Below, piece by piece: positions 23,419 through 63,490 of a stretch of 64,000 nt of DNA. Where the stretch lies: positions 10,545,409-10,609,408 of the forward strand of contig NC_049995.1 in NCBI RefSeq assembly GCF_000003815.2, given 5' to 3'. Within the stretch, counting starts at the first letter, position 1. The number at the start of each line of letters is the position of its first letter. A program made the translations under genes and the position numbers. The DNA is from Branchiostoma floridae (lineage: Eukaryota; Chordata; Leptocardii; Amphioxiformes; Branchiostomatidae). Under the pieces are notes generated by a model. It saw nothing but the letters and a program-made list of their open reading frames with translations, had not been told where the DNA came from and did no database searches.

Positions 23419-26400
23419 ATGGGTTTCTTCACAGTTTTCTTAGCAATGGCGCTGGCAGTGTCTCTGAGTTGGTCAGAGGTACAGGGTGCCGATCCTATCA
23501 AAGATCTTACCAGAGATATTGAGGACCTGCAAGGTAAGTCTCTATCACTGTAGCCCAACTGGTTCACAGTTGAAGTCCTGATTTCGATTGCATGTACTTG
23601 GTTAGGCCTACGTCACATTTCCAAAACCGGAGCCCGTTAGGATAGCTTTCGGGAACGAAAAGTATGATACGAAAAGCACCAAAATACACAACACAAGAGA
23701 CGTAAAGAAAATAGTCTTGGGCATTATTTGTATATAATTTTACGTATACATTTCTATTTTTCAATTTTTGGAAATGTGACGTTAGCTTTACAGCAAGTTC
23801 CCGGTTTAAATCCCGGGAAGGCATTTCGGTTGGGGCTGCACCCGTATTTCGGAAGGGACATAGACGGGAGTCCCGTGTTCGAGGAGGAGCCTCAAGCACG
23901 TTAAAAGGAAAGAGCTAGCACCCCCTTTTTTATTAAAAAAAACATATACCGCTACAGAAACAGCAAAGAACTTGCTGCCCTACTAGTCAGTACAATGTGA
24001 ACCTTGCTAATGATGCTTAAAGGTATGGTTTTACTCAACGTATTATTAATGCTTTGGTTAGAAAATTTTAAAGTTTAAACTGACTTATGTGCTGGAATTA
24101 TGCCATTTTTTCTTGATATGAAGAAATTGATTGCAATTCTCATAGAAATGGGTAAAAAAAACTGGGGACAATCTTGACATTTTCCAGATACATGTACTAA
24201 ATAATATAGCCTATTGAATGCCCGTGCGGTGTTTTGTCATGCTGTGTAGTAGTATGTACACTGTTTATACACAGTCACGTGTGGTTAGTTCATATGATAG
24301 GAGTTTACCTTATCAACAATATGTTGAAGGTAGATTAAAAGGGTTTGCCGCCTCATTATGCTTTAACAAAGCATAATAAGTTGGTATCTCACCGCACTTG
24401 GGACACCGGTGCGGCACTGCGGGGTTCGTTCACTGCGCCACTGTTTTTTCATCTTTGATAAATTAGATATGCCTAAGAAGACATCAAAATACTGTAAATG
24501 CAGAAACTTTCGCGGTGGATTAATGTTCGCGGTTTTCGCGGCGGCCACTTCAGAATTTAAAACCACCGCAAACATTTTTCCATAACAGTAAGAGACTACA
24601 GTGCATGGTGCTACCGCGAAAATAAAACTACCGCGAAAAGTCCATTTTTCCCGATAACGCGAAATAAAATCTCCGCGAACTTAAATGCCTTTACAGTACA
24701 AGAAACGGAAGAAAATTCGCTTTTTATCTCTGAAATTCGTTGTGCAATCTACGATCCCCGCAGTGCCACACCGGTGCTCCAAATGCAGTGAAATACCACC
24801 TTTACGTACCCTGGGTAAAGGATCCTCTGACAAGTACCTGTAAAACTAACTACCCCTGATTTATGTCCACAGCAAAATTTACCGACCTATCCATGGAAGT
24901 ATCCAGGCTGTCAAGCGCATTGAAGGGCAACCAGGTGGCACTGACAAAACTAAAGGTAAGAAACTACGTTTGCTCGTACTTAAATCCTGTGCAAATTTTT
25001 GCATGTAAGAACAGAAATTACTACCTTGCAGAAATAAAGCCTCTATTTGTTTTTGTTTTTTCTTTGTTTGTTTATGTAAATCTTCATTAGACTTTACGAA
25101 GTGCACGTAAAATCTAATTTTCTGTTGGTTGAGATTGCGATCAGAAATATGCTAGAAATATGTTAGGATGGATTTAACTTTCTATGTCCTGAAAAAAAAA
25201 ATTCTAAAACCTTTATTCTAAAAAAACGTCCAGGAAGTCCATAGAAACTAAGAGACTAAGACAATTATTACTACAATATGCGACTATCCACATTAAGTGA
25301 TAATCTCCGCCAACCTATTACATGGAACATAGTACAGTCTACCCTTAGCATTGGTAACAGTGTGTAAAGGTGCGCTCCAACGAGATAAAGAAAGAAATTT
25401 CTTTCTTTTTGTGTATTTCGTCGTCTTCTTAGTCATACTTTTACGTATCAGACAATATATAAATTATGAAAAAAAATCGGAGAAAATAACAAAACAGGTG
25501 GGAGCGCACCTTAACAGTCTTCTTCTCACGTAGTGGTCTCTCTCGTTGATATATCCTGAGTTCCAGGTCAATCCATTCATCTAAATTGACAAGAATCAAG
25601 CTTAAGTTTAAGAAGCTTCGGCTGCCTTTAAGCATATACATTTTTTTTGTATCTACAAAAACAGAAAATTATTTACAAGCACAGATGCAGGTCTAGATCT
25701 CTGCCGGTAGAATCGCAATTCCGTCGATCGTTGTAGCCAAGCGCCTTGACAGAGCGCTCAAAAAATTTCTTTGATGAAAATAATCCTTTGAAGCAATAAG
25801 TTTCACAGTGAAAAGACTTAAACCAAAAATTACCACATTTATTAGCCATGGTAGACCAAACTTGTTGAACCAAACATGTTGAAAAGATACAGTAAAAAGA
25901 TACAAATGATACTATTGCTGGCAGCTGGATAAATGCAACTTCTCGTGGCTTTTCTGTTATATCGGGGATAAAAGAGCAGATATGCTTTATGACCGATGGC
26001 TTGTCTAGTTGCAGTAAGAATATTTTTTTACAGAACTTAGGTGTATGAAGTAAGGAAATTAGTTTTGTATAACCTAATACAGTTAATTTCTCTCTACGGT
26101 TTACAATCTACACCCTACTACAAAATGACATTCGTCCTCTATTCTATCTAAATTACAATGTTTCCATGAGGTGAAATGCAGGTTACAAATATGTACCGCT
26201 TTCCTTTCTCGTAGGCAACTGAGTTGAGCATTACCGAGTTGACAAACGATGTGACAGAACTGAATGGCGAGCTCGGAGAGGTTCAAACCGGGTTCTTAGC
26301 CCTTCAACAGGAGTACGAGACACTGAATGGCGAGCTGGACCAGTACAAGATCCAACTGTCTTCACTGGATGCCAGTTCTCAGGCCAACATCGACGAACTG

Positions 26401-28956
26401 AAGGAGCGCCTGCAAAGTCTTCAGAATCTCCTTCGCGAGGCCAACGATGAATTCGACTACGAGCTGTACGAGCAGCAGCAACATTTCACCGATACGCTGG
26501 AGAGCCAACGGCTGGAGCAGACCGATGCGCAAAACGTCCTTCAGCAAGAGTTTGAGATGCTGAAGAGAGTCAGCGAAACGCGCGAGGCGAACGCAGTGGA
26601 TGAGCTGCAGCAAGTTCTCGAAGACGCGAATGCTGCGCTCGCTGATTCTGCCAACGACGACCGCCTGACGGGTCTGGAAACGCTCGTCGACACACTACAG
26701 GAGCAGGTCGAGCTTCTTAGCCAACAGATGACCGAACATGAGACAGAGATGCAGTCCATCGAGCAGTCTGTTCAAACCACAACAGAAGATATTGGCGACC
26801 TGGACAACAGGCTGGAGGCACAGCAGTCCGAGCAAGTCTCCTTCCAAGGTGACCTGACGGGGGTGCGATTTAACGTTACGTCCCTCAGATCTGATACAGA
26901 GGACTTGGAAGAGCAAAGCCTGGCGGCAATTGCACAGCTTGAGGATCAAGGAACCCGTCTGGATCATCAGGAGGAAGAACAGGAAGGAATACAGGCGCAA
27001 GCAGATCAGTTAGAGACCACCTTCAATGAGCAGAACGAAATCGTGGAACAACGCCTGACAGACGCTGAAACGAGGATTGCCACTCTAGAGACAGAGGGAG
27101 CTAGCGCTCAGGACAGAATCACGGCGATCGAGTCCACTGTCCAAACTCTGGGCGGCACCGTCAGCGAAGTAGATCAGCGAGTCGACGAACAGCAGACGAC
27201 GCTGGGGACACTACAAGAAACCGTCGACAACCAAGCGTCAGAAATCCAGTCCATCAACAGCTCTCTCCAACAGGCGGTTCAACAGCAGGTGGGACTCCAA
27301 CAGTCCTACGAAGACCTGCAGCAGGAGGTTCAAGAGCAAGAGGTCCTGACAGAGCAGCGTTTGCAGACCATAGAATCTGGTATAGACGCCGGTGGATCTG
27401 GTGGAGATTTTACGGCAAGTGTGGCGGCTTTGCAGGAGGTAATGGACGGACTGCAAACGAGCCTGACGGAGGTGAACGCGTTGGGAACCTCGTACAACAC
27501 AGAGGTCCAAACCACGCAGCAAACTCTCAGCAGCTACGCCACGCGCATCCAAGTCGTGGAGGAGGCACTCGGTGGTGCAGACCCAGGCGCTCTACAGCTA
27601 CAGATATCAAACTACGAGGCTACGTCAGCGCAACGTTTTGGAACGTTGGAAGCGAACATTGCTGCCATCAGCACCTCTATAGACGCAGTTGAAGCCCAGA
27701 TAGCCCAGATGGAAGGAACTGCTGGCTCTGTGAGTGGTCTATCTGGCCAGGTCGCCCAGCTCAACACGCAGGCTCAAACTAACAGCCAAACCCTCAGCGC
27801 CGCATTGGCAAGCATTCAGGAGCTTCGTACCGACTATCAGGACCTCTTTGACCAGACAGAATCGTTTGAGGGGATCGTCAACGAACTGGAGACAAACTAC
27901 CAAGAGGTGCTGACACAGCTGGCCGACGTTGCCACTTCGCAGGACATAACCGACGTACGGTCTCGACTTGTGGAACTCGGGGAATCAGTAGACACCCTGG
28001 AGAGCGAAGTTGACAGCATGCACGCAGGATCAACAACCTTCCAAACAGAGCTGCGAAGCGATGTTGACGAGATCACCACCACGGTGCAAAACAACGAAGT
28101 GAAGCTGACCGAACTGGAAAACAATGCCCCACCGGCGTCCCTGTCCACAACTGTTGCCGGTCTGCAAGAAACGGTTTCCGGGCTTTCTGTCACCACAAGC
28201 CAGCTAAACACAAGGGTCAGCAGTGCAGAGACCAGTGTTGCAAACAAGAGGAGCATCGCCTGTGAGTTCTTACAGTTATTATTTTGCGCATTAAATCCCA
28301 CGTCATGTCACGGCCAAACCGTGGCCCAGCCGGAAAGGTTTCAGAAACAAAGTATGATATAAAAGACACCAAATAAACATTACAAAATAGAAAGCTCCGC
28401 AAACATTATTTATGTAGATAACCCCGATTTTGCATGAGTAGCATTTAGTTATGTAAGGCATCTTTGAAGCTATCTACATTCCAAATAACATGAAGATCCA
28501 TCAACCCATTTCCGACTTGTTCCCCTCTAAAGGGATGATGCAACTCAAAATTCCCTACATACATGAGGTACTTGATAACTTTGATAAGGCACAAGCGTTT
28601 TGTTAATGATACAGTATTCTGAATGATATGTTATATGTTGTGTATGTTATGTTTCCAAGCGTTATGCGTAATTATTACTCTTGGAAAAGTAGATGTTGCA
28701 GACTGTGATAAGCTGTCAACAAGCTGTCAATAACAGTCAATAAACAATAAACAGTAATGATCCTTTAATGTATTTTCAGGCGAAAGCGGTGAGATCTACA
28801 ACAGCAATGTAGGCACGGGAACAACAAAGAGCAATTACTTCTACTTCTCTTCTGGTTTCACATCCACCCCAGTCATCGTACCCTCCATCACATTGGTCGA
28901 CACCGCTCACTACAGAAACAACAGGTACCTCTTCGTTATTAATATTATTATTATTA

Positions 28957-29007
<51 letters not shown>

Positions 29008-30009
29008 GAGTCCATTCCAAGACACCATGCGGATGTTTGTGGCCATTGTTTAGAATTGATTTTAAAGTTTTGTAATTATATGTCTAGGACATTTGATACT
29101 TCAGAAATATTTGTAACACTGTTTCAACTTTATAAATATTTCCCTGGTCCTGTAAAACTTTGGAAATATTCATCGTGTGGAATTGGATACTTCTAATGGT
29201 TTCTAAATAATGATAACAGCATTCTACCATTATCTACCATTTTCTACCATTTTTTGTAAATGGTTCAGTGGGCTGGGAAGATAGCAATTCACACATCCTT
29301 GCAAAGTATGGTTGGGTGCCATGAAACAATGGCCCACCACAAAGGATCCACTAGTGCCCAGCTGTGAAATCTAAAAATATACAGATGCAACAATAGGGCT
29401 TACTTTTATGGGGGCAATAAACTAATTTAACCATTTGGCGAGGTTAACCATTTTTTGTAAATATTTGTAAATGTGAAATAATCACACAGAGGTTTCACAA
29501 TTATTGTAAATAAAGATATTTTTGTACAGTTACTTTCAAAATGTTTCTCAAATATTCAAAGGAATTCAAATATATGAGTACTTTCTCAGTCAATTTTTAA
29601 AAAATAATCTAATTATTGTGGCTCAGATATTCTTTTATTCAAAATAATTCAGACTAATTATAAATATCGCCTAAAAACCCTCATGGTGTCTTGGAATGGA
29701 CTCTATTATTATTATTATTATTATCATCATTATTATTATTATTATCATCATCATCATCATTATTATTATTATTATTATTATTATCATCATCATTATTATT
29801 ATTATTAACATTATTATTATTATTATTATTACTATTGTTGTTATTAGTATTATTATCACCATTTTAATTTTTACTATGGCTTGTCCATTAGGGTGGAAAT
29901 CTACACCAGCAGTGAATCGACGAATGGGTTCTGGCTGACTGCTCGCACTTGGGGTGACACTTACTCGTGGGGCGTCAAGGGAAAATTCATCGCCTGTGGC
30001 TACGTCTAA
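23419..30009 (+). CDS. Secreted coiled-coil H-type lectin, gene A
   Basis: Five exons (23419-23533, 24873-24955, 26215-28261, 28780-28924, 29892-30009; phases 1,0,1,2) encode 835 aa. Residues 1 to about 24 form a signal peptide (MGFFTVFLAMALAVSLSW, then SEVQGA). Residues about 25-748 are Gln/Glu/Leu-rich heptad repeat, a long coiled coil with no cysteine I can see. Residues about 749-835 match the H-type lectin fold of Helix pomatia agglutinin: ESG start, F..GF...PVIVPSITLVD, NRVEIYTSS, NGFWLTARTWGDT, KFIACGYV. The ARTW tryptophan aligns with the sugar-contacting aromatic position of that family, while the usual WIA.G end is FIACG here. NVT and NSS sequons are present in the stalk. By inference it forms multimeric stalk-and-head lectins outside the cell, perhaps in immunity or mucus. 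The start gives a clean signal peptide and is preceded by a TATA box. Ligand is unknown. Confidence 0.85.
23607..23785. mobile_element. MITE (ACGTCACATTTCC ends) in intron 1 of gene A
   Basis: The ends ACGTCACATTTCCAAAA and TTTTGGAAATGTGACGT are perfect reverse complements over 17 bp. The interior phrase (GGGAACGAAAAGTATGATA) is shared with repeats at 28300-28415, 32020-32160 and 46095-46262. Confidence 0.7.
23786..23925 (+). repeat. tRNA-like SINE fragment in intron 1 of gene A
   Basis: It contains a B-box-like CCCGGTTTAAATCCCGGG and ends in a T-rich run followed by A-rich sequence. Its family is not identified. Confidence 0.3.
24383..24800. mobile_element. MITE family 1 copy, interrupted by another MITE
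   Basis: Left end GGTATCTCACCGCACTTG and CGGTGCGGCACTGCGGGG; right end CCCCGCAGTGCCACACCGG and GCAGTGAAATACCACC. The interior (AGAAGACATCAAAATAC) is cut at 24490 by a TACTGTAAA-family element and resumes at 24699. It lies in intron 1 of gene A. Confidence 0.8.
24490..24698. mobile_element. TACTGTAAA-family MITE nested in family 1
   Basis: Ends TACTGTAAATGCAG and TGCCTTTACAGTA are terminal inverted repeats. The interior phrases GTTCGCGGTTTTCGCGG and CTACCGCGAAAAGTCCA match the copy at 17943-18153. It is younger than its host element because it interrupts it. Confidence 0.8.
25367..25512. mobile_element. MITE with family-1 interior but different ends
   Basis: Ends AAGGTGCGCTCC and GGAGCGCACCTT are perfect inverted repeats unlike those of family 1. 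The interior (TTTGTGTATTTCGTCGTC, TACTTTTACGTAT, AAATAACAAAACAG) matches family-1 copies read in reverse. It lies in intron 2 of gene A. Confidence 0.65.
28300..28415. mobile_element. Partial MITE with GGCCC..AGTATGATATAAAAG interior
   Basis: It shares AGTATGATATAAAAGACACC with 32050-32075 and relatives at 23607 and 46095. It starts just after exon 3 of gene A. The ends are not clear. Confidence 0.45.
28937..29007. repeat. (ATT)n microsatellite, left half
   Basis: Long ATT run in intron 4 of gene A, continued at 29704 on the far side of an inserted element. Confidence 0.9.
29008..29703. mobile_element. 696-bp TA-flanked MITE inserted in an ATT microsatellite
   Basis: Terminal inverted repeats of 22 bp (29008-29029 and 29682-29703) are perfect reverse complements, starting GAGTCCATTCCAAGACACC. 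TA flanks both sides, as expected for a TA target duplication of Tc1/mariner type. No transposase frame is inside, so it is non-autonomous. The perfect ends suggest a fairly recent insertion. It lies in intron 4 of gene A. Confidence 0.8.
29704..29860. repeat. (ATT/ATC)n microsatellite, right half
   Basis: Continuation of the microsatellite at 28937-29007 with ATC variants. Poly-Ile or poly-Asn open frames here are artefacts. Confidence 0.9.
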
Positions 30010-39360: not shown

Positions 39361-42300
39361 ATGTTGCTGTCTGCTGGCATCTTCGTGCTTCTGGCCATCT
39401 GGGCCGGGCCGCAGGTTGAGGGCAAGGATCAGATTGTCGGCTACAAAGAAATGAATCAGCTCTATGGTTTGCATGTTTTTGTTTTAATTTGTTTTTAGCT
39501 TTAAGACTTTGTCATTTATACTGATACTTGTGTGTGTGCTTGTGTGTATTTGTGTATTTGTGTATGTGCGTGCGTTTGTGTTTGTGTTTGTATGCATGTA
39601 TGTATGCCAGCTGTGTGTGTGTGCCTATGTGTTTCTAGGTACCTGTGTTGGTGCGCCTGTGTTGTGTATGCGTGTGTGTGTACCTGAGTGTGTGCCTGTG
39701 TGTGTGTGCCTATATGTGTTTCTAGGTACCTGTGTTGGTGCGCCTGTGTTGTGTATGTACGTGTGTGCGTACCTGAGTGTGTGCATGTATGTATGCCAGC
39801 TGTGTGTGTGTGTGTGCCTATGTGTTTCTAGGTACCTGTGTTGGTGCGCCTGTGTTGTGTGTGCGTGTGTGTGTACCTGAGTGTGTGCCTGTGTGTGTGT
39901 TTGTGCCTGTGTATGTGTGCCTGTGGGGTTTTGTGGGCCTGTGTCTGTGTGTGTGCGTGTGTGTGTGCGCTTTTGTGTGTTACTTTGTGAGTACGTGTAC
40001 CCGTGTATGTGTGTGTGCGTTTGCGCGCGCGTGTATGTGTGTCTGTGTGCGTATGTTTGTGTTTGCTTGTCTGTGTGCCCCTGTGTATGTGTGCGTGTAT
40101 GTGTGTTTGTGGGTGACGAGTAATTCAATAGTTAACATTTTCCTTAGATTAAACGCACTTGTTTTCTAATAATAAAATATTTAGTGAAATTTTGGCAACG
40201 TTTAGGCAGAATGCTGAACATAATTTTTGAAATCCGGTTTTAAAATTCTTTTCCCAACATATTTTTTCAGCGAGTTTTAAACAGGTGGACATGACGTATG
40301 GAATGGTTGCTACAGAAATTGAACGTTCAAAGAAGACATATAAGCGGTGGGATGATGCAATGGCAAGAGAAAAGGTATGTAGAAAATGGAAGCCTTGCTT
40401 ACTATAATGTTTTAGATAATTGCTGAAATGGCCAACGAACGTTACATACTAAAAATGCTTTTCTCGTTGTGAGTACACAATAATATAAATATTTATACTG
40501 AGCTTTGGCTTCTATTGTAGCAAGCCTACCCAATGTTCAATACCTTTCTATTCTCAAAATTACTACAAAGAAAATAACCGCTCAACACCCTCTTCGAATC
40601 CAGAATGCCTTATGGCCAGTCGTTCTAGTTTATCGTTTTTTTTCCAGTTCTCTGATGGTCTTGGAAGAACCCTATTATCTTCAAGTCTTTCTAGTGTGAC
40701 CAGTCTACACTTTGTCAGTATCTGGTATACTCTTTTTAGAAGGTATTATAGCCCTGTCATATTATCCACGATCTTCGGGCGTGTCGGTGGAAGATTGGCC
40801 ATATTTACAGAGGGTTGCGCGTATTTTTCACCTGAAAACCGTCCCTGTCACATATAAGGTATACTTTGTACCTTATACAATTGTTGTGCAATAAAGTTAT
40901 TATTATAAGCGAGGCTCGGGCGATCGTAGCAGAATCGACGTATCGACGTCAGATCGATTTTCGCCAAATGTGACAGAGGTATAAGGGGATCCATTGATTA
41001 TATTCAAACGTCTTTCGTACGATTTTCCAACTATCTAAAAGCTCTCATTTTTTTTTATGTCTGGACATAGTCCAACTACTTTTTTATTCATCTGACTTTT
41101 TTGTGTCCGGTTACAGACCTTTTCCAGAATGATCTCAACACAAGATGAAACACTGAAGAGCGCGCGCAGAGAAATCGGACGCCTCGATCCTCAGATGATT
41201 GTAATGACGGAGGATTTTGACAACTTAAACAGCAACGTGACTCAAGAATTCGGGAACCTGCACTCCGTGAGTGAGCATATCGACGAAGAGCTCGGTACAA
41301 TTGAAGCGGATACCCAAACGTATGCTGTCACCTTTGAGCAAAGTATGGCAGACATTAACCAAGCCATTGAAGATCAGAAGCGAAGCATTCCAGTGTTGAT
41401 GCTTCAAGAAGCAGATCGCCAGGCTCAAGTAAGAGATGACTTCCGACGGGAAATTGCTGAGTACGAGAGTGCAAGGGAACAAGAGACGACTTCAAGAGAA
41501 GAACTTATGCAAACGGTCGACTCTACAATCGCTGCTCTAAGGGCGAGGGACCAGGCATCACACGACCGCGCCGCATCTCTGCAAATCAGAGTCCAACAAC
41601 TGATTCAAGAAGTTGAAGGAATCTTCATCCGATCTAGAGAGCAAGGTTCGCGGCTGGACACCGCAAATGCCTCGTTTAGCGGAGACAGGCAACACGTCAC
41701 GAACTTCCGTACCTCGTTTAATACTCATCTGCAGCAGTTTAATCATATTCAACAAATGTTAGCTACTATACAGGCATCAGTCGCGGAGCTACAGACCAGA
41801 AAGGGGCAGGTACAAGGATATACATCTCACCTCAATGAGCATATCCAAGATCGTCAATCTCGCCTTGACGACGATGACCAACAACGAGCAACTCTTCTGC
41901 AACAAATCAGAGATCTCCGTAACGACCATGGGCAGGACAACAATGCCAAAGACCTGCGTTTGAATGATGTCGAAGCTACGCTTGACAATTTGGCTGCAGA
42001 TACAGCGGTAACTGACACAGCAACGCAAGTGGAGACCACCCTTCGAAACCTACAGACCAACATAATCCCTGAACTGAGCTCTAAGGTTGACCAAAATCAA
42101 AACATGCAGGATTCAATCCAACAACAACAAAGCAGCCAACAGCAGTCCATCCAGTCGGAGAATGCCGACGTCCAAGCATTCAGCCAGGGTCTACAGGCAT
42201 TTAACCATCAAATAGAATCATTGGAGAACACACACCAAATGCAAATCTCGAACACAGAAGCTCGTCTGCTGGCAATGGAAACGCAGGCGAACACTGCCGA

Positions 42301-45300: not shown

Positions 45301-45800
45301 GAATACACAACAAAACACACAAAGCGGAAGATTTTTTTTTTGTTCTTTTATCTCTGAAATTCGTTGAGTAATCTTTCGAACGCCGCAGTGCCGCACCGGT
45401 GCCCCAAGTGCAGTGATAGACCTTTGGACTGTACTTTGAATTAACTTCTTATTGATGATTATCGTACATTCATGCCATATCGGGTATACAACAGGCATAC
45501 AGATATGAATTTGTAATAATATACACAGGGTGATATTTTGAGGCCTTCTTATACTTTTTTATTATTGCAGTTGTTTCTGGCAACATGGTCCGTTACTGCA
45601 GATTTCCTCTAAAAGCATTATTTGACCAAAAAAATTGTGATAAATTGAGAGTATTGTTGTTGTTCATCCCATGCAGGTTGAAGGTCTACGTAGAGGACGT
45701 AACTCCAAACGGCTTCCGGCTGAACTTCGGTCCATGGTCTGATACGATTTTGTACGAGGGGAATGTAGACTGGATTGCCATTGGAACCAAGGCAACCTGA
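39361..45800 (+). CDS. Secreted coiled-coil H-type lectin, gene B
   Basis: Five exons (39361-39466, 40271-40374, 41117-43145, 44389-44569, 45677-45800; phases 1,0,1,2) encode 847 aa. A signal peptide (MLLSAGIFVLLAIWAGPQVE) is followed by about 720 residues of coiled coil rich in Q, E, D and L, with no cysteine I can see in exon 3. The C-terminal lectin domain (about 747-847) is the best family match of the three: FESGSYYLAW, RDIRFNNGFRRNPIIYTTI, TKLDM, NRLKVYVEDVTPNGFRLNF, GPWSDTILYEGNVDWIAIG. The PW tryptophan and the WIAIG end match Helix pomatia agglutinin-type lectins. The donor of exon 1 (GTTTGC) is weak. Residues about 201-347 are nearly identical to gene C. It is probably an extracellular oligomeric sugar-binding protein. 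Ligand is unknown. Confidence 0.87.
39520..40115. repeat. (TG)n-rich minisatellite in intron 1 of gene B
   Basis: TGTG-rich sequence with an embedded higher-order unit carrying TAGGTACCTGTGTTGGTGCG three times (about 39638, 39724 and 39829). Long Cys/Val-rich or His/Thr-rich frames here are artefacts. Confidence 0.9.
40733..40985. mobile_element. Repeat element with CTGTCACAT phrases in intron 2 of gene B
   Basis: It shares AAAACCGTCCCTGTCACATA, TTGTTGTGCAATAAAGTT and GATTTTCGCCAAATGTGACA with the copy at 57840-58080. The right end resembles that of the foldback at 56769-56964. Confidence 0.6.
41507..41947 (+). other. Conversion-like block in exon 3 of gene B
   Basis: This 441-bp segment matches 51920-52360 in gene C with five substitutions and no gaps, while sequence on both sides is clearly diverged. 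It starts at codon 131 of exon 3 in both genes. It encodes coiled coil with a TLLQQIRDLRNDHGQ phrase near its end. Confidence 0.85.
43199..43383. mobile_element. 185-bp foldback MITE in intron 3 of gene B
   Basis: Ends TTAGGGCGCGGTCTCATAGG and CTTTGTGACCATGCCCTTA, with inner CATCGTCGTGCGAT and ATCGCACGACGACCG, form an imperfect inverted repeat. CGTACGATCGTCGTACGATT-like repeats follow to about 43465. Confidence 0.6.
44111..44340. mobile_element. MITE family 1 copy in intron 3 of gene B
   Basis: Ends GGTATCTCATTGCACTTGGG and GCCCCAAGTTTAGTGAGATA with CGGTGCGGCACTGCGG-like inner repeats. It lies about 50 bp before exon 4. Confidence 0.75.
44597..45047. mobile_element. Foldback element split by a LINE fragment, intron 4 of gene B
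   Basis: The left end CTAATCTCCAAGCAGATCCT stands at 44597 and its continuation AGCATAAGATAGTATCAAAA resumes at about 44936. The right end reads GTAAGATCTGCTTTGAGATTAG. Tandem copies of the same element occur at 58434-59310. Confidence 0.6.
44629..44935 (+). mobile_element. LINE 3' end fragment (reverse transcriptase C-terminus)
   Basis: The frame from 44629 to the TAA at 44827-44829 reads RTRNSHDFKYQ, then VFKNSYFPRTIVEWNLL and SFLDSFKERL, typical of the extreme C-terminus of non-LTR retrotransposon polyproteins (F.F.RT...WN.L...F...L). It is followed by a short 3' UTR and an ATACAG/GATACA repeat tail. It is 5'-truncated, as LINEs usually are, and lies in gene sense inside an older foldback element. 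Confidence 0.7.
45048..45272. mobile_element. MITE family 1 copy in intron 4 of gene B
   Basis: Starts AGTATCTCACTGCAC and ends GTGAGATGCCAC. Bases 45130-45272 are identical to 53943-54085 in intron 3 of gene C. Confidence 0.75.
45283..45420. mobile_element. MITE family 1, right half only, intron 4 of gene B
   Basis: The interior and right end (CGCAGTGCCGCACCGGTGCC to GTGCAGTGA) are present. The left end is missing. Confidence 0.6.
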
Positions 45801-48555: not shown

Positions 48556-51500
48556 ATGCTGTCGTCTGCTTGCTTCCTTGTGTTTCTGTTCGTCTGGACC
48601 GGGCCGAGGGTTGCACGGGGGGTTGACCACAAAACTTGGATAGAAAATCTCCAGGGTAAGCCTTTTTTAGTACCTTAATGAATTCAGCATTACCATACAG
48701 AAAGCTAAGGGTACAACCCACCGTACGTGCAATTTGTCCGTATGTTTTTTTGGGACGCCACGTCCGCCACGTATTTTTGGAAACGTTTAGGCTGTACAGG
48801 GCAGGTGTGTCGCCCGTACTGGCACGCACGGGGAGCAAATCCGCAGCACGATAGTACACAAAGTTCGTACGGAGGTGGTACGTACCACTTACGGATCCCA
48901 AAAGATTGCCCACGTTTTGCCACGTAGACAGCACGTATTTATTATTTGCACGTACGGCGGGTGTGCCCTTAGCTTAAACGTATATATCGTAGAGGATGGG
49001 GGGGGGGGTGTATAGCCCATTGTTGTACAGGGGCTTGACCTGATCCTCTAGACCTTACCCTCTGGACCTGGACCGTGCCTGGACCTGAATTTTCTGGCCG
49101 GTACACAACCCTAGTATCGCATAATCTAGCTGTCAAAAGGGCTTTCCACAAAAGGAGTCTAAGCATACGTTTCGCTACCTCAAAAGGGAAAGACTTCTAT
49201 ATGACCAATACAATAGTCACTTTCCTTTTATTTGTTTTTATTTATCTACGTTTTTATTCACAAGTCATCCATAAAATACAGAACACTGTAAGCTATTTAC
49301 ACTGTTACTAACCTATCCACATATATCACTACATTACCAAACATATACGGCTAAAAACAAACATTGTAGAATATTGCAGTACCACTTTCTTGCCATTTAA
49401 AACACTAGTTTACCTTAGCTCAATCACCTAGGCACATGTATTACTACATGTATGCTATAACACATTTACATATTGTTGCAGGCACCATTCCCACTGGATT
49501 TTTTGGCTAGGGTTTGCTCCTCATGATTCTTTACTGGGGTGCTTTACCCCCCACCCCTGGATTTGCAATGCTAGGGTTTCTTTCCTGTACATAGGACTTC
49601 TGTCTAGGGGTGTCGCTTTCATTCTAACTAATAATCGTTCTTCTTACCTCTAGTATAAGTTTTTTGGTGGTCTGATTACAGAAAATCATATCTCATAACA
49701 AATTTTTCATGGTATTATTTCAGGGTCTTATTTCAAGCTGTATGGCGTCTTTCAAGGACTTGAGAAACAGAACAAGGATATGATGGCATTATTTGGCAAA
49801 GTAAAGGTAAGTAAGAAACAGAAGACTACGAGAGGTGATCAATAAGTCCTCGGCCTCACCCAGAAATAATAAGCACAACTCAGGTTTGGAAGTATATATG
49901 TCAAGTATAAAGTCTTATATGAATGTGTGCCAAAATTCAAATTATTGTGATAATTACTTTGCAAGCGACACCTAGTAACGTTAGGTAAAGGTGGGGTCAC
50001 ACCTGCGTATATATTTAAGTCCGTATGAGGCACACATGGGAGTATTTGCCTCCTCCAGGCTCCACAGGTCGTTGTAAAAATAATAGAAATTGGACAAACG
50101 TAAACAGGTAACATTTCAGACGAGTTAGCTGGGTCGCTAACCATACTTCTCCATCAGCTAACTCATCTGGCATGTTATGTATTTGTTAAATTTGTACTAT
50201 TTTTCCCACGACCTGTGGAGCCTGGTAGAGACTAAGAGCTTCATTACGCACCTCAAACGGACTTAAATATATACGCGGGTGTGACCCCACCTTAAGGGAG
50301 AAAAAATGTGGACAATTTAGCTGCGACCTGATGTGTGCGGGTCAACTTGCGCTGCTGGAAGTCAGATACCCACTTTTTTATGTTTGAAATCGGAAGACAA
50401 TGTTGACAATGTCTTTTGTTAATAACAAAGAATTTCCGGCATGGGGAACTCGACACACACATGTCTGATCACAATTCACCCTTGTTTTTCTCGCCACTTA
50501 CCTCCTGATTTGCAGAAAAAAAACGAATGCCTGGAAAGTAAAGACTGCAATGATTTGACATTTGGAAGATATTCATAAAAGGCTTCATACTATGAAGTTG
50601 TGCCTCAAAATTTGAGTTGTGCTTATCAATTCTGGGTAGCCGAGGACTTAATATTTAATAATCATCCCTCGTAGCTTCCACATGCAGAGTAGTAACTTAA
50701 GTAGGACGATTCGTATAGCCATCGATTGTATAATACTAGAAACACCACTAGGTGATCGGTTCCTATACAGATTGATTAAGGCACCCTTTCCACTTGACGG
50801 CGCTCTCACCGCGCTCTCGCTGCGATGGAAAATTGTCCAGAGCGCGGTGAAAGCGCCACGACGCAAGAAAATCTGCAATATTCTACAAATTCTACAAAAT
50901 TCGTCAAACATGGTGGAAGACGAAACACATTTTATTTCAAATTGTTACTTCTAAGATCACGAATGAAAAGATTTTTTTTAACTGGCCGCCAAATTCCCCC
51001 AAAATTCCCAGACAAAAGGACAACTACATTCCTCCTAATATCATAGAGCCCACACATTATAAAAAAAAAGTTGGGACCCTTCGTCTTCCAGTGCATCAGA
51101 AAAAAGAAGTTGAACACAAAACGTTACAGTTTAGAGATAGCCTTAAGACTAGAGTAGACACATTTGGTACTGCTCTACACTATTGGTGTGTTTGTCTTCC
51201 TTTATGCTATCTGCAATTAGCCCTCGGGCATGAATTTGCCATAAATTATTATATTCTACTTTCATAACCTTATGAAATGCTAATCTAATCCTTAGGTCAC
51301 ATTGCTAATGGAATGCGTAGGTGCAGCTAGGCTGTTTGCCGAAATGAAGAATGATTTTTTCTAAAATTCAGAAACAGACACAAAGTGCCTGACTAATCAT
51401 TATAATCAAGTTTAACGCGTTTCGTTTTCCTTTGTATCCTTCTTTTCGTTCCCACACACTGTATGTCCTGCTGGGCCCCAGTTTGTAAATGTGACCTAAT

Positions 51501-54500
51501 CAGTCTTTGTGACCATTTTTCGCTCCCAGATCGTTGATGAAAGACTCACACAAGAACACCACACTGCAAAAGAAATTCGGGGAAGTTTCCAAACGTTGCG
51601 GCCTCAGCTTAACACACTGGGAAATGCCTTCGACAACTTGAACCGCAGCATCAGTCGTGAAAAGGAAAAGATAAACCAAGTGGACGTCAACTCAAATGGT
51701 GGATTTAAAGAACACGAGGACGAAATAGAATCGTTTTCTGGTATCTTGGAGGGATATATAGCAGATGTTGACCAACGTATTAAAGTTCAGAAGCAAACGT
51801 GTTCAGAAGAGTTGCGACAAGAAGCAGAGCGCCAGGCCGAAGCGACGCATGCCTTCCGTCAACAACTCTGGGATTACGAAGACGCGAGGGAACAGAAGAC
51901 GAAAATGATCAAAGAACTCATGCAAACGGTCAACTCTACAATCGCTGCTCTAAGGGCGAGGGACCAGGCATCACACGACCGCGCCGCATCTCTGCAAATC
52001 AGAGTCCAACAACTGATTCAAGAAGTTGAAGGAATCTTCATCCGATCTAGAGAGCAAGGTTCGCGGCTGGACACCGCAAATGCCTCGTCTAGCGGAGACA
52101 GGCAACACGTCACGAACTTCCGTACCTCGTTTAATACTCATCTGCAGCAGTTTAATCATATTCAACAACTGTTAGCTACTATACAGGCATCAGTCGCGGA
52201 GCTACAGACCAGAAAGGGGCAGGTACAAGGATATACATCTCACCTCAATGAACATATCCAAAATCGTCAATCTCGCCTTGACGACGATGACCAACAACGA
52301 GCAACTCTTCTGCAACAAATCAGAGATCTCCGTAACGACCATGGGCAGGACAACAATGCCATTGGTCTGGATTTGAATGACATCGAGGCTACGCTTGACA
52401 CTTTGGAGGCAGATACAGAAGCTGATGACTCCCTGACTCAAGTGGAGTCTACCATACGAAACATACAGGCCAACATTACTGCATTGAACTCTAAGATTGA
52501 CCAAAATCAAAACCATCAGGAAATGATCCAACAGCAACAAAGCAACCAACAGCAGTCGATTGAGACGGAGGGTGGTGCAATCCAAGAGCACACACAGGCA
52601 CAGGAAACCTTTGACGAACAGTTAGAGTCATACAACACAACCTACCAGGAACGAGTGTCGACTGAAGAAGAGCGTCTGCAGACCATGGAAACACAAGTCG
52701 GAGATTCAACGGAGATTCTCACAACTCTACAAGGGATCGTCGATGTCCTCTCAACAAATGTCGAAGGTGCTGAGCAACAGTTTGCACAGTATTCGAGCCC
52801 CGCGGCCATTTCGGAAGGCTTTGCCAGTCTGGAGCAATCTATCCAAGATGTTGAAGACACCCAAGCAACATTTACTTCCGTAGAACAACAGCTTACCGAA
52901 TCGATGTCGGAAACGGACGGAAGATTTGAAGGGTTAGAATCAGACATTTTAGATCAAGAGACTTCCATGGAGCAAGCACAGGCGAACCTGCAGCTGGCAG
53001 CCCAGGCGCAAGACGGAGATTTTGACGTATCAAGTACCATTGCTAGCCTGAGCACACTGGTTACCACCAACACTCAACAAAGTGACGAACTCAGCTTGTC
53101 AACTCAGGAAGTCCTCAGAGACCGCCAGTTGGTTCAGGCACAGCAACAGACTCTCGAAGAACAGATAGATGCAATTCCAGTTGATCAAGCGCAGCAGAAT
53201 GTGGCTGCTGTCTTTGAAGACGACATCCGAGAACTTGACCTCAAGCTCGACAACATGGAAGCATCAGTGGACCAGCTAGAGGTGACAGCGAATGCGCTTG
53301 CCTCGTCCTCTGAGAGCACGTTTGAAATGCTTGAAGGCAACCTGGACACCATCACCACCCAGCTTTCCAATCAGCAGGGCGCGATAAATGCACTGTTGCT
53401 TAGACAGGAAGACGGACTGGAGAACACAGTGACTACCTTGCAACAGAACGTCGATGACATAACAAGCTCTACCAACGGTCTATTCACAAGCGTTGCTGAC
53501 CTCGAACAAGCCCTCCAAGGATCATCTGTCGATCACTGTAAGTACCATTATCCCACATTTTGATCTAGTTTCGAAACTTGATATTAGCTTATCCTGACTC
53601 TGTGTTATTGTTTTGTTTTATTTTTCATTAGATACCAAGACATCATTTTCTGTATATGCTAACTCTGTATTATTATTCTTAAGATTGACTTAGAGTGCAA
53701 CTCTTTTTTATTCATGTTAAATAAGCTAAATTTTATGGTGAAACAAGTATATTTTGTCAATCAGAGAATGTTCTTGGGCTACGAAATTTTGCGATCACAA
53801 AAGCGGGAAAGCTAGTAAACCGATGGTGGTATGTGTTAAACTACCGTACTCTTCCCTCTAAATGTGGTATCTCACTGCCTTTTGGGCAAACGGTGTGGCA
53901 CTGCGGGGTTCGTCTACTGCGACATTCTTGTGTTATTTTCGCGATATTGCGGAAACGTAGAAGTACTTATAAGACTACGAAATACACAAAACGTAAGAAC
54001 ATTTGTTCCTTATTTCTGAAATTCGTTTAGTATCTTTGGAACCCTGCAGTGTCGCAATGGTGCCCCAAGTGAAGTGAGATGCCACCTTCAGATTTGCTTC
54101 TGTGATTGGGTTATTTGAACCCAGGGTCTATTACAAAGATGGTGTCTGATGCAAATCTTGGATAATCCTTGTGGTCGACTGCATTATAGCAGCCTGTTGC
54201 ATCTACTTTTCGGCGGCTCCAGGAATCGTCCAAAAACCTTACGAAAACTAGATATCCAGGATTCGTACTTCCGGTGCCGTCAATCATGGTGATTGACAGT
54301 ACAGAAAACATTATTATGCACGCCCATGTTTCCATATATGGGTCGACCTCGTGAGATCTCGACAGACTCAAGTTGCGAGAGATTAAAACCCGGAAGTGAC
54401 CGCTGCCCTCCCCATGATAGGACGTCATCTGAATGCTACTAACACGTAAATAGAATGTGACGCTACACGAAAAACAACTTCAAACACACAACACATAATA

Positions 54501-56761
54501 TAGCCGTGCGACTGTTATTGTCTATCGTTGTGGACAACGGTTGTCTTTAGACATATATGCGTTCAGAGTATTGCGGGACACCCGCGGTGCAGGATACCAT
54601 TGCGGTGCGTGCGTGACCCACAGTGACCGCTTGCTCGCAAATCAAAAATGGCGGGAGAATTCCTTATTTTCGTCAGGCGTTCAGGCCGTTTTCTGGATAT
54701 CCAGGAATCGTCCTCCTGTTCAGGCCGTTTTCTGGATATCCAGGATTCGTCCTGAGTCTGTTCAAGCCGTTTTCTGAATATCCAGGATTCGTCCTGAGCC
54801 TGTTCAAGCCGTTTTCTGGATATCCAGGATGTGGACCAGGCCTTGTGTGACAAAGGGACGCCATCTGGATGCTATTAACACGTTACCGTGAATGTGTCGC
54901 TATACGGAAAACAACTGTTACAGTAACTTTATCCCATCTTGACTGCCATTTGTTAATTCATTACGCAAAAAGCATTTTGGGCCTAATATGTAAGTAACAT
55001 GTAAACATCAAAGTATCATTATCAACATTCGTTTAAGTTCTGTAACACCAGGATCAACAGAATAAACTACACGATCTTCTTGCGGGGAGATACAAAGATG
55101 GCGGCTTTCTGACGAAAACAACATGCCCCCGCCCTCCGCATAGTTTCCTCCCTCGAAAACAGGAAGCTCCACCCCCACGTCCACGTTCTGGATAAACACC
55201 GTCGTCTATCCAGGAAACGTCCTGTTTGCGACGATTTCTGGATATCCAGGAATCGTCTTTCTGCTCAGGACGATTCCTGGATATCCAGGATTCGGCATAT
55301 TACGAAAGTTAGATAATGACGAAAGTTGGATACAACACAGCCTGTTGATGATGATGATGTTGATTATGGTTACGTATTACAAAGTCAATTAGCATCTGGG
55401 AAAGAGTATGGCAGTAGAACACACTACTGCAAGTTGAATGCCCTTCTATTGTAGCGAATGCGCAAATGTGTGGCCCGAAGGCTTTTGAAATGGAAATGAG
55501 CGCCACCCTATGTACTATCTCATATGTGTAGGACTTTAACTTTTAGGGGGGGGCACTTTTGAAAACCATACAACAAACCTTGACAAAGTTAACTCTGCCA
55601 ATGCAAATTACATATAGCGAAAAGTAGGCATTTTTTCCTTTTTTTTCTCACCATTTGATTTGATTGTCGTAATTAATTTACAGTCGAATCAGGCACTTGG
55701 GAACTTCCGGAGCAGAGGAATTTTTGGGGCCAATCGCAAACATATGATTCAAAACAAACCAACACCATAAACTTCAGCAGTCATTTTCGAAGAAGTCCTG
55801 TCGTTTATGTCAGCATTTCCAAATGGGACATGGGATCGGGCTACACTAACAGGTTTGTGGAATACCTTATTCTAATAATAAATAATGAAAATGAAAATAA
55901 TTAAAACTACGGGGACGGGTTTACTGGGCTTGAAACAAAAATTGTGGGTGAAAAAATATTCCGCATGAAAAAATAAAGTTCTCGAAACATCCCAGAAAAT
56001 GTGCAGTGAGAACTTTAAGGGCGGAAAAATGTGACCAAATTTTTACCGCTATCAGGAAAATTCATGATTGTCGAGTCCCTTTGGAAGAAGCCAATTTCCA
56101 GAATACTTCAACTTACTCAAGTTCCAATTTTTCCATTTTTCCATAAAAAAAACTTGGTGTTCTGAGATAATTTTCGCATTGTCACGCACAAAGTTTTCGA
56201 GCACACGAAACCCATCCCGCAATTCTCGTATCTGTATGTCTTTTTCATCTGAGCTACTTAATTAATATACTGATGTTGTGTACCTTTGTTTATTTTGATT
56301 GCAATTAGCGATCGGACATGCTTTAAAAAAATGCTATTTACTTAATTTTAGAAAAGAAAGAGAGAAAGAATGAAATGATAAACGCAAGAAAGAAAGAAAA
56401 AGAAAGAATGCAAGAAATAATGAACGAAAGAAGGAAAGAAAAAGAAAGAAGAAAGAAGGGAAAAGAGAGAACGAATAAATGAAAAAAAGAAAGAAAAGAA
56501 AAGAAAAGAAAGAATAAAGAAACGAAAGAAAGAAAAGAGAACTAAAAAGGGTTCTACAAAAAAAAGGTTTCTAGCCTGGTATTATTGTTGGAGGATGAAG
56601 GCTCAACTTGAATTTTAATGTTATTGTTGTTTTCATACAGCTTTTCGGTCCGTGTATACAACGTAGAGCCAAGCGGGTTTTCGATGACGTACGGGCGTGA
56701 CTCTGACGGGCAATTTTATGCCGGGACGGTAGAGTGGATAGCTGTGGGCAACCGGTATTAA
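48556..56761 (+). CDS. Secreted coiled-coil H-type lectin, gene C
   Basis: Five exons (48556-48655, 49724-49806, 51530-53537, 55684-55852, 56641-56761; phases 1,0,1,2) encode 826 aa. The signal peptide is MLSSACFLVFLFVWTGPRVA. About 700 residues of coiled coil follow, with one cysteine (KQTCSEE) near its start. The C-terminal lectin-like domain (about 731-826) shows FESGTWELP, NTINFSSHFRRSPVVYVSI, SKWDM, SVRVYNVEPSGFSMTYG and GTVEWIAVGNRY. Where gene B has GPWSDT this copy has GRDSDG, so the conserved tryptophan is absent and sugar binding may be changed or lost. Residues about 192-338 are nearly identical to gene B. GAGAGGCAGACGG before the start is shared with gene B. Intron 3 carries MITEs and a minisatellite, and intron 1 another MITE. 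Confidence 0.86.
48712..48976. mobile_element. AAGCTAAGGGC-family MITE, copy 2, intron 1 of gene C
   Basis: Ends AAGCTAAGGGTACAACCCAC and GCGGGTGTGCCCTTAGCTT. The interior matches 37703-38016 and is shorter by about 50 bp. A 194-codon frame on the opposite strand crosses this element and exon 1 and is not a gene. Confidence 0.75.
49988..50293. mobile_element. MITE with AAGGTGGGGTCACACC ends, intron 2 of gene C
   Basis: AAGGTGGGGTCACACCTGCG and CGCGGGTGTGACCCCACCTT are inverted repeats, extended inward by ATATATTTAAGTCCGT and ACGGACTTAAATATAT. A second inverted pair (CTCCACAGGTCGT, ACGACCTGTGGAG) sits inside. A partial relative lies at 62450-62525. Confidence 0.8.
51920..52360 (+). other. Conversion-like block in exon 3 of gene C
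   Basis: Partner of 41507-41947, with five substitutions in 441 bp. Four of the five change the amino acid (D/N, F/S, M/L, D/N) and one is silent. Confidence 0.85.
53867..54086. mobile_element. MITE family 1 copy in intron 3 of gene C
   Basis: Starts GGTATCTCACTGCC and ends GTGAGATGCCACC. Bases 53943-54085 are identical to 45130-45272. Confidence 0.75.
54170..55290. repeat. Minisatellite built on CTGGATATCCAGGA(T/A)TCGTCC
   Basis: Four or more units of about 45-55 bp lie at 54681-54832, with further copies at 55205-55290 and single ones near 54250. The core GGATATCC is itself palindromic. A larger duplication (GGATGCTATTAACACG-like, TGTGACGCTA-like) links about 54430-54480 with 54860-54912. 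It lies in intron 3 of gene C. Confidence 0.7.
56345..56545. repeat. (GAAA)n purine-rich microsatellite in intron 4 of gene C
   Basis: A strand-asymmetric GAAAGAAAG-type run of about 200 bp ending roughly 95 bp before exon 5. Confidence 0.9.
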
Positions 56762-56768
56762 AGGCATC

Positions 56769-57777: not shown

Positions 57778-57839
57778 TAGCATAAGGACCGGTCTAGGAG
57801 TTTGAACTCCAATGCCTTTAGGTTTTTTAGTCCAAAAAC

Positions 57840-60988: not shown

Positions 60989-61950
60989 CCAACATGGCGC
61001 AGATGACGTTAAATGTAAAGCCTGTATAAGTACAATAAGAATACGTCTCTATTTGAACTTTAATCTTCTACTCTTATCCCCTTGTAATTATGTACACATA
61101 TTTGATTAGCCACCAATTTACGACAATCAATGACTTTGATACAAGACTTAGACCCGGGTAAGCCCTTATCCTTTTCCCATGGTCGGTATAGCTGTTTGGT
61201 TTATACTTCAACAATGCCCTTTCTGTATAGCGAAGGAATAACATTCTCACAAAGCATTTCTATGTTAGGCTAATCTGATTTCATTACATGGATGACGTCC
61301 ATTCGGCAACCAAAAATTGATGCGAGCATATATGAAACAAAGTTGGAAAAATACACACTTTCCTTCTATATGAAATGTAAGTAGTCATGGAGATTAGAAT
61401 GACTGAAGATACAAACTGAAAATACAGAACATAGTACAACACAATATATGCTTTATTTTTTGTATTTTTGCATCTTCTTCGTTGGCTTTCCAACGCATAT
61501 ACATCAATATTCGAGTGTAAGTTCATCTGTGACGGTAGTCAACATTATGTTACAAATTTAAGCTTTATTCCCGAACACAGAATAAAGCACTCACCATCAG
61601 GCTTTCGATCAGTCCTCTGATCCTTATCAAGTTGAAATGACCCAAAAGCCTAAGTTACACATCCAGACCGGAAGTGTGACGTCAGCAATGGGTCATAGAT
61701 ATACGTTGATTTTGCAGCTTCTTTATATGATTGACTGTAGTTTCACAAAGTTATGACGGAAAACGGACAAAAAACTATTTGCGTGTGGATGCCATCCACA
61801 AAATCAAGTTAGTGTGGACTTCGCGAAAATTAAACATTTGGTGATTTACATAATACAATTCAGCAGAGCAATTTCTCAGAGTTAAGATCACGGTAAATAC
61901 GAAAATCTTTTATAAAGCCTTGTGAGAACTCATTTGGTTGAGTGCAGTGG
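60989..61950. other. Intergenic upstream of lectin gene D
   Basis: No coding sequence is recognised. ACCGGAAGTGTGACGTCAGC at 61667-61686 joins an ETS core and a full CRE about 370 bp before the start of gene D. TGCCATCCACAAAATCAAGTTA near 61789 resembles a phrase downstream of gene A at 30931. Confidence 0.4.
61668..61684 (+). promoter_or_regulatory. ETS plus CRE sites upstream of lectin gene D
   Basis: CCGGAAGTG directly followed by TGACGTCA. It resembles the membrane-gene block but has two extra bases between cores. A link to gene D is only positional. Confidence 0.3.
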
Positions 61951-61952
61951 TG

Positions 61953-61960
61953 TATAAAAG
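61953..61960 (+). promoter_or_regulatory. TATA box of lectin gene D
   Basis: TATAAAAG, a strong TATA match, 101 bp before the ATG. That spacing equals the 102 bp in gene A. Confidence 0.55.
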
Positions 61961-62053
61961 TCGTTGAGGTTTTAGAAGCAGTAGAATTTTGCCGGACTTG
62001 GTGCAAGACGGTTGCAATTTTATACTACGGTGTTCGGCCATCTTTGTTCAGAG

Positions 62054-63490
62054 ATGACTCGTTCCCAGGCAGCCACTCTCGTTCTCTTTGTCTTCTGCTT
62101 CGGGATCAATGAGGGGAGTATCGACTTTTGGAAAAACTTACACGGTAAGTGCATTTTCTACTTGTTATATGAGTTATCATATAGAATAGGGATATCCGTG
62201 TATACTTAGCTCAACTGGTAGCAGTGTCCAAGTTGAACTCCCTGTTCCAATCTATTTCTTGGCGCTCTTTTCTGGAAAATGTTCTTTTGCACAACATGCA
62301 CACATGTTACGAAGAAGAGTTTTTCCATACGCAGTCATATGCACAATACGCACCTCATACGCGTAGGTGATGGCGTGCGTATGTATGCATGTGTACCTAA
62401 AACTGACACACAAAAAAGATTGAGATGCCTATGAGGTGTGTTTTGTGCGTACGACTTCGTATGAAAAAATGCCAATACGGACCTCAAACGGAATCAATAT
62501 ACACGTTTGTGTGGCTGCACCTTTAACAATGTGATCTTTGAAATATTATAAGTACATAAAATACCTTATGAAAATTTATTTTGTATCGTAAGTCCCGTCT
62601 GGCCGTCACATAACAACATAAATATTCATCACTCTCCTTTTCCGTTTCAGATGCCGCTGAGAAAGGAAAGGCGGACTTGATGAAGAATATTGAAGACCAC
62701 GTGAAGAACATACAGGTTTTCCATTATTTCCATTATCCGTTTTTTTCCGTTAGTTTAAATTTTTGAATCCTTCGCACTCTCAATCTCTTACTTTGTTCTG
62801 ATATTGTTGCCCTATTTTACATCCATGTAAAAACTCTACCGTAACGCAAGGTTTTCTTGTTAGCGATCTTGCGGTTGGAACAAGAGTCTGGGGTTCAGAT
62901 CCCCGTCCAGTTAATAGCTGCGTCTAAATCAAGGTTTCCAGACCACCGATACAACGGCGCTTTGTTAAATGTGGTATCTCACTGCATTTGGGGCGCCGGT
63001 GCGGCACTGCGGGGTCCCTTCACTGCGGCCGGGAAAGTTGTGTATGCATTCTTCAACATGCTGTAAGCTAGGGGTATCTCACTGCATATGGAGAACCGGT
63101 GCGGCACTGCGGGGTTCGAAAGATACTCAACGAATTTCAGAGATAAAGAACGAATTTTCTAAAGTTTTGTGTATTTTTGATTCCTTCTAAGTCATACTTT
63201 TACGTATTACGCAATATCTAAATTTAAAAAAAATCGGCGAAAGTAACACAATGATATTGCCGCAGTAAACGAACCCCGCAGTGCCGCACCGGTGCCCGAA
63301 ATCCAGTCATGAGACCTTCACAGATTTCTCCACAGACCACGGCAGAAAACGCCCATGCTAAGTGGAACCTCATCACCGTGAACAACCAACGCATCAAGAA
63401 ACTGGAAACAGATCTGGCCGCCGTTTCATCCACCGTGCGCCGTCTGGACCAGACCATGCGCCAGCTCGCGTCCCAGCAAAATAAACTGAG
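62054..63490 (+). CDS. Coiled-coil lectin family member, gene D, 5' part only
   Basis: Exon 1 (62054-62144) encodes a signal peptide and a short stretch (MTRSQAATLVLFVFCFGINE, then FWKNLHG) and ends in phase 1. Exon 2 (62651-62715) encodes charged helix ending in phase 0 (weak donor GTTTTC). A third exon at 63324-63490 (or from 63336, both acceptors in frame) reads TTAENAHAKW, RIKKLETDLAAVSSTVRRLD and QTMRQLASQQNKLR and ends in phase 2. Signal peptide, exon 1-2 phases and helical start match genes A-C, but the third exon is about 160 bp instead of 2 kb and leaves in another phase, so the stalk is shorter or cut into more exons. The lectin domain, if present, lies beyond the window. Its membership in the family is inferred from layout and position. 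Confidence 0.6.
62335..62525. mobile_element. Partial MITE related to 49988-50293, intron 1 of gene D
   Basis: GGACCTCAAACGGAATCAAT and the CACCTTTAA end resemble the right end at 50250-50293. The left side has ACGCACCTCATACGC-like phrases only. Confidence 0.4.
62973..63030. mobile_element. MITE family 1, left end only, intron 2 of gene D
   Basis: GGTATCTCACTGCATTTGGG, then GCCGGTGCGGCACTGCGG. The rest is missing. Confidence 0.6.
63074..63316. mobile_element. MITE family 1 copy abutting exon 3 of gene D
   Basis: Starts GGTATCTCACTGCATATGG and ends GTGCCCGAAATCCAGTCATG then AGACC. The interior is reversed relative to 60326. Its right end lies 7 bp before the proposed exon 3 boundary at 63324, so it makes up the 3' end of the intron. 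Confidence 0.7.

Follow-up and report, generated by a model that had tools for sequence, protein, structure and literature searches.

Tandem genes for predicted long-stalked H-type lectins in the lancelet Branchiostoma floridae

What kind of protein results when an H-type lectin domain stands at the end of a coiled coil of about 700 residues? The question is raised by a cluster of genes in a 64,000-nucleotide stretch of the Branchiostoma floridae genome (C17:10545409-10609408, RefSeq contig NC_049995.1; hereafter the window), whose assembly comprises 513 Mb in 431 contigs. We think it likely, from the gene structures and the patterns in the predicted proteins, that the cluster is a local tandem family whose products are secreted rods that bind glycans, probably trimeric, about 105 nm long and with a lectin tip. 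An earlier inspection of the letters of this DNA (the sequence-only reading) had proposed stalk-and-head H-type lectins on one strand, and for genes 1-3 this proposal is supported by gene models, Pfam matches, residue periodicity and a heptad-register score, with secretion judged by eye.

Gene models, stalks and heads

Genes 1, 2 and 3 lie in tandem on the + strand at window positions 23419-30009, 39361-45800 and 48556-56761, with five exons each. Their models, rebuilt by script, are uninterrupted and encode proteins of 835, 847 and 826 amino acids. All 12 introns have GT-AG borders, and the intron phases are 1, 0, 1, 2 in every one of the three genes, identical as the sequence-only reading had it. 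The layout runs from a signal peptide (by eye) through a heptad stalk of about 700 residues to a C-terminal H_lectin domain. In the translations of genes 1-4, judged by eye only, an N-terminal signal peptide appears to be present and no later transmembrane helix is seen; the word "receptor", used earlier for these products, is not supported.

Gene 4 starts inside the window and was completed after the cluster DNA had been extended by 20 kb upstream and 38 kb downstream of the window. It has six exons with phases 1, 0, 2, 1, 2 and encodes 411 amino acids; after the exon that ends at 63490 comes a further stalk exon, outside the window. With a stalk of about 300 residues and one extra stalk intron, gene 4 is a half-length relative, and the description of the family as giant holds for genes 1-3 and fails for gene 4. 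Its predicted splice between exons 3 and 4 (63490/64320 in extended coordinates) makes Arg-Gly-Asp, a possible integrin-binding motif. A tblastn search of both flanks found no additional family member; such a search can miss diverged split domains, and it did not itself report the downstream exons of gene 4, which came from open frames and the genome search. The exons are listed here with the evidence for each.

23419-23533, + strand: gene 1 exon 1, signal peptide (by eye); donor GTAAGT, phase 1
24873-24955, + strand: gene 1 exon 2, where the coiled coil begins; gene model
26215-28261, + strand: gene 1 exon 3, coiled-coil stalk; gene model, periodicity, register score
28780-28924, + strand: gene 1 exon 4, junction C-E-S-G and first H_lectin half; gene model, Pfam
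29892-30009, + strand: gene 1 exon 5, second H_lectin half and stop; gene model, Pfam
39361-39466, + strand: gene 2 exon 1, signal peptide (by eye); gene model
40271-40374, + strand: gene 2 exon 2; gene model
41117-43145, + strand: gene 2 exon 3, coiled-coil stalk; gene model, periodicity, register score
44389-44569, + strand: gene 2 exon 4, first H_lectin half; gene model, Pfam
45677-45800, + strand: gene 2 exon 5, second H_lectin half and stop; gene model, Pfam, genome search
48556-48655, + strand: gene 3 exon 1, signal peptide (by eye); gene model
49724-49806, + strand: gene 3 exon 2; gene model
51530-53537, + strand: gene 3 exon 3, coiled-coil stalk; gene model, periodicity, register score, AlphaFold
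55684-55852, + strand: gene 3 exon 4, first H_lectin half; gene model, Pfam
56641-56761, + strand: gene 3 exon 5, second H_lectin half and stop; gene model, Pfam
62054-62144, + strand: gene 4 exon 1, signal peptide (by eye); gene model
62651-62715, + strand: gene 4 exon 2; gene model
63336-63490, + strand: gene 4 exon 3, first stalk exon; gene model
64320-64978, 65390-65543 and 66250-66361 (extended window coordinates), + strand: gene 4 exons 4-6, beyond the window; downstream DNA

The exon-3 frames of genes 1, 2 and 3 run for 682, 676 and 669 codons without a stop before the donor, and in 200 mononucleotide shuffles made from each exon no stop-free run exceeded 299. Hydrophobic power peaks at a period of 3.5 residues in all three spectra (z 16.5, 15.1 and 17.5 against shuffles), and the mean power near this period is 5.81, 5.10 and 5.81, compared with 1.47 in the shuffles. 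The heptad-register score gives z = 17.2, 12.6, 13.3 and 7.0 for genes 1-4, with 13, 10, 12 and 4 register breaks, respectively. Prolines number only 3, 6 and 3 in the stalk stretches of 710, 712 and 698 residues in genes 1-3. As a statistical pattern of the predicted proteins, these stalks are long coiled coils, in line with the length first proposed. A coiled coil rises by 0.1485 nm per residue, and the predicted stalks of genes 1-4 would measure about 108, 108, 105 and 45 nm, register breaks being ignored. When the gene 3 stalk was modelled with AlphaFold from its single sequence, the result was seven helices without any strand, with low confidence (mean pLDDT 58.4). For the complete gene 1 protein there are matches to 18 Pfam families at E values up to 0.1, nearly all of them coiled-coil types, and those over their cut-offs are DUF7310 and FlaC_arch (both just over) and H_lectin.

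How many chains would such a stalk contain? The trimer motif RhxxhE occurs 5, 2 and 1 times in genes 1-3, a sum of 8 compared with 0.74 expected when the hydrophobic positions are held fixed, and none of 3000 controls reached this sum. Gene 4 has one such motif, compared with 0.06 expected from plain shuffles.

At the other end of the proteins, the heads of genes 1-4 match H_lectin (PF09458) with 41.7, 66.1, 51.9 and 57.1 bits (E 1.3e-10, 3e-18, 8.6e-14 and 2e-15), all over the curated cut-off of 24, so that the profile search of the last exons suggested by the sequence-only reading came out in its favour. These bits come from domain-only queries; the Pfam scan covered the whole protein for gene 1 and the head for genes 2-4. 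The solved structures nearest to the heads are the agglutinins of Helix pomatia (HPA) and Helix aspersa, with best E values of 3.8e-8 for gene 2 and 3.2e-6 for gene 3. We take Arg63 and Trp83 of HPA to have individual roles in binding N-acetylgalactosamine. In an alignment that covers HPA residues 32-100, and so runs without loop L1, their equivalents in genes 1-4 are R, R, S, G and W, W, D, W, respectively. Arg63 falls in loop L3 (53-64) and Trp83 in loop L5 (82-90), both part of the sugar-binding loop network of the agglutinin (PMC6363177). A cysteine at the start of H_lectin (C-E-S-G in gene 1, C-E-V-G in gene 4) is accompanied by one near the domain end; genes 2 and 3 have neither of these two bracketing cysteines, and it looks from the sequences as if one disulphide had been lost there as a unit.

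Short-neck relatives and the history of the cluster

Are these genes isolated in the lancelet genome? A whole-genome H_lectin search gave at least 34 matches, of which 23 lie on C3 and 2 on C17, and none in any of the 14 control genomes; the count is a lower bound, as both H_lectin halves of genes 1 and 3 were missed by this search. Twelve of the 32 matches outside C17 were read, namely the eight best-scoring (L001-L008) and L019-L022 on C12, C19 and C217; L018, which is mostly N, was set aside and belongs to the 20 of 32 left unread. A Q/E-rich, coiled-coil-like neck exon stands upstream in 11 of the 12 loci, with open frames of 65-134 codons, and L006 has none within the 1.5 kb examined. The script sought fixed motifs, and other necks could escape it. 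Nine of the 12 loci end in (E/K)RC. The heptad power of the necks, calculated without a shuffle control, is 4.2-6.3 except in L021 (0.7, no heptad signal). H-type lectins had been described in the sequence-only reading as short oligomers or discoidin domains, a view that these necks show to be too narrow.

We saw no long stalk in any of the 12 loci read outside the cluster, and the gene 3 stalk used as a genome query matched three places, which are genes 3, 2 and 1. As far as seen, the combination of neck and H-lectin appears common in this genome and the very long stalk special to the cluster; judged by their structure, the giant genes are an extreme version of the shorter design. The likeness extends to the junction. 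Genes 1-4 have a heptad-repeat exon, a phase-1 intron and then an H_lectin domain starting C/F-E-S/V-G. In the seven short-neck loci with both splice sides visible, the splice falls after the first base of a cysteine codon and yields C-E-S-G, the same place and phase as the stalk-lectin junction of the cluster genes, which supports the predicted splicing of exon 3 to exon 4. The short-neck lectins of C3, C12, C19 and C217 differ in that their H_lectin lies in one exon, whereas the cluster genes have a phase-2 intron inside the domain, and in that their necks are far shorter than the stalks of genes 1-3. All 9 short-neck rows aligned keep the equivalents of both Arg63 and Trp83; the alignment started from 12 loci, L005 not among them, and lacks L002, L006 and L018, for which no row was extracted. 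The rows end in a cysteine, and their first cysteine comes from the inferred splice in seven loci. Four loci on C3 (L003, L004, L005 and L007) lie, by eye, near transmembrane-like exons and are perhaps type II membrane lectins. An open frame of 737 amino acids at C3:4755823, considered as a further giant, was rejected because it was an assembly gap read as N.

The shared junction bears on the very improbable case that the models are artefacts that join coiled-coil exons of one gene to lectin exons of another. Errors of gene prediction have been argued for lancelets (PMC4967905), and if exon 3 is read on without splicing, each gene runs into a stop no more than about 100 bases beyond the donor, so that a separate transcript ending there is compatible with the sequence. 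Against this stand the same exon order, strand and phases in genes 1-3, the recurrence of the phase-1 junction and its motif in the seven short-neck loci, and exon-3 frames that are free of stops up to the donor.

Within the cluster, a stretch of the gene 2 stalk (41499-41951, + strand) and one of the gene 3 stalk (51912-52364, + strand) differ at 8 of 453 bp. Outside this tract and its edges the nucleotide identity of the two genes is 41-83% in 40-codon windows, and the synonymous divergence (dS) is often above 0.7. A near-identical tract inside a strongly diverged exon is best explained by recent gene conversion, which we regard as probable. Over their whole length genes 2 and 3 have a dS of 0.647 and a nonsynonymous divergence (dN) of 0.375, and dS is the larger of the two in 35 of 41 windows, the pattern of coding sequence under constraint. 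This result also touches the idea that the proteins take part in gamete or egg-coat recognition, by analogy with the egg agglutinins of snails. The tandem copies with divergent heads would suit such a role, and snail H-type lectins are reported to protect fertilised eggs (PMC8878817, PMC5549309), but the excess of dS gives no sign of positive selection at this resolution, and we hold the idea to be rather unlikely.

The family may have arisen from, or alongside, the larger short-neck set by lengthening of the neck, followed by divergence in the sugar-binding loops. The phase-2 intron within the domain, common to genes 1-4, is a better sign of common origin than a tree of the heads, although it is not decisive. 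In lancelets exon shuffling by phase 1-1 exons is reported to be high (PMC4284660); stalk exons 2-3 of genes 1-3 form a 1-1 module, which fits such shuffling and proves nothing.

Some other elements were seen around the cluster. Downstream lie a T-box gene, with a T-box match at 2.1e-6, and a gene for a voltage-gated cation channel, with Ion_trans at 2.8e-35. A tandem repeated exon at 6716-7012, 9795-10190, 12078-12455 and 17454-17687 apparently marks a family of small single-pass membrane proteins, and no Pfam family exceeded its cut-off for any of the four copies. An interspersed repeat with the core GGTGCGGCACTGCGGGGTTCG (up to 3 mismatches) occurs at 13 places from 24408 to 63290 on both strands, with four facing pairs about 155-344 bases apart and none in 100 shuffles; it is perhaps a small inverted-repeat transposon.

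Possible function and its alternatives

What might such proteins do? In the mechanism we propose, the signal peptide would export each chain, and the 700 or so residues that follow would form a long coiled coil, most likely of three chains wound together, giving a rod of about 105 nm. The C-terminal H_lectin domains would then come together as a trimeric head, as in solved relatives, and this head would bind sugars through its distal loops. Trimeric relatives of the same fold have been described in R-pyocin and phage AP22 fibres (PMC6363177, PMC6116203). With several weak sites and a long reach, the rods could attach to surfaces covered with glycans, or cross-link them; microbes, mucus, cells and egg coats are examples. 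They would most likely be used as a soluble agglutinin or opsonin, or as a mucus or matrix component. We put soluble recognition or agglutination first, given that the loop residues are retained in genes 1 and 2, with a matrix or mucus role close behind.

Several observations weigh against this proposal. Gene 3 lacks the equivalents of both Arg63 and Trp83 and gene 4 that of Arg63, so that the predicted sugar binding may be altered or gone in these two. The stalks of genes 1-3 contain one cysteine in total, in gene 3, which leaves little to cross-link the chains. The trimer motif is unevenly spread, with 5 of 8 in gene 1, and gene 3 is unremarkable (1 motif; a fraction 0.198 of the controls as high). 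The comparison pattern ShxxhE is also frequent (2, 1 and 4 times in genes 1-3, a total of 7), and the excess is therefore not unique to RhxxhE. In 6 of the 41 windows that compare genes 2 and 3, dS is no higher than dN: three lie in the near-identical tract, where dS is 0 in each, two lie close to the N-terminus, and one is at residue 540 of gene 2. A tree built from 14 H_lectin rows fails to group the four genes; of its 11 inner branches 9 are open, the four form one group in 1% of 200 bootstrap trees, and long branches lead to gene 1, gene 4 and the snail row. An immune use is one possibility among several.

It is also conceivable, though we would not bet on it, that these are matrix or mucus fibre proteins of the EMILIN/multimerin kind. 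The stalk would itself be functional there, as a scaffold, spacer or gel, and the H_lectin head would be a trimerising cap or an anchor to matrix glycans with no recognition of foreign cells; structurally this overlaps our proposal and differs from it in use. Multimerin-1 has the same plan, with a long coiled coil, a C-terminal globular head and an RGD in its N-terminal part (PMC8881648), EMILIN-1 is termed homotrimeric (PMC12249408), and the Arg-Gly-Asp at the gene 4 exon 3/4 junction points the same way. The loss of both loop residues in gene 3 means that sugar binding may be dispensable in that protein. On the other side, the Pfam scan of the complete gene 1 protein turned up neither EMI nor EGF, collagen or gC1q parts (in genes 2-4 the scan covered the head), and Arg63 and Trp83 are kept in genes 1 and 2 and in all of the aligned short-neck lectins.

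Under the proposal of secreted glycan-binding rods, the genome would offer a ready test series, in which related heads are carried on short necks, on one stalk of 300 residues and on three of 700. This length series lets the effects of stalk length and head valency be asked.

Comparison with known systems

The Helix agglutinins (PDB 2CCV, 4Q56) are the best solved matches for the heads of genes 2 and 3, belong to the same Pfam family and share the two loop residues with genes 1 and 2. Their chains have 101 residues without a stalk, whereas in genes 1-3 a stalk of about 700 residues precedes the domain. The gastropod HREPs also join an H-type lectin domain to another module (PMC8878817), but with immunoglobulin-like domains in place of the coiled-coil stalk. 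In molluscs, C1q- and fibrinogen-headed coiled-coil proteins are described and H-type lectins are not among the expanded families, and coiled-coil rods with C1q, fibrinogen and C-type recognition heads are known (PMC8878817). To these, H-type lectins on rods of about 105 nm would bring a further head type, in a chordate close to vertebrates. No account of a long-stalk H-type lectin was found among the literature matches listed or in the available parts of PMC8878817, PMC5549309 and PMC4284660, a partial coverage that leaves absence unproven.

Collectins and ficolins are multivalent soluble lectins on a rod, with a collagen rod and a different lectin fold. The collectin-like multivalency earlier ascribed to the family is a plausible analogy in this sense. 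The translations of genes 1-4 contain, by eye, no Gly-X-Y run, and their heads are H_lectin, so they do not count as collectins or ficolins.

EMILINs and multimerins are secreted and have a long coiled coil and a C-terminal globular head (PMC8881648), but theirs is a gC1q head with an N-terminal EMI domain, and the head of genes 1-4 is H_lectin. R-pyocin and phage AP22 fibres are elongated trimers with a discoidin/agglutinin-like tip that is thought to bind surface polysaccharide (PMC6363177, PMC6116203); they differ in being viral or bacterial and in having a shaft that is not a plain 700-residue coiled coil. Gene 3 alone has a weak Gp53-like_C match, under its cut-off, and when genes 1-3 were queried against PHROGs two weak matches appeared, both for gene 3 (E 0.00062 and 0.0043). 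We read the resemblance as one of build, with no descent implied. A more daring picture, which we put forward tentatively, is that of a chordate counterpart of the phage tail fibre, in which secreted homotrimeric rods of about 105 nm, encoded by a small set of tandem genes, their tips bearing paralogue-specific sugar loops that drift apart and their stalks partly homogenised by gene conversion, would serve as soluble long-reach recognition molecules in the innate immunity or mucus of lancelets. Such rods would be a eukaryotic parallel to phage fibres with the same type of tip. By analogy of build, the EMILIN/multimerin proteins and the phage tail fibres look closer to the lancelet genes than the collectins do.

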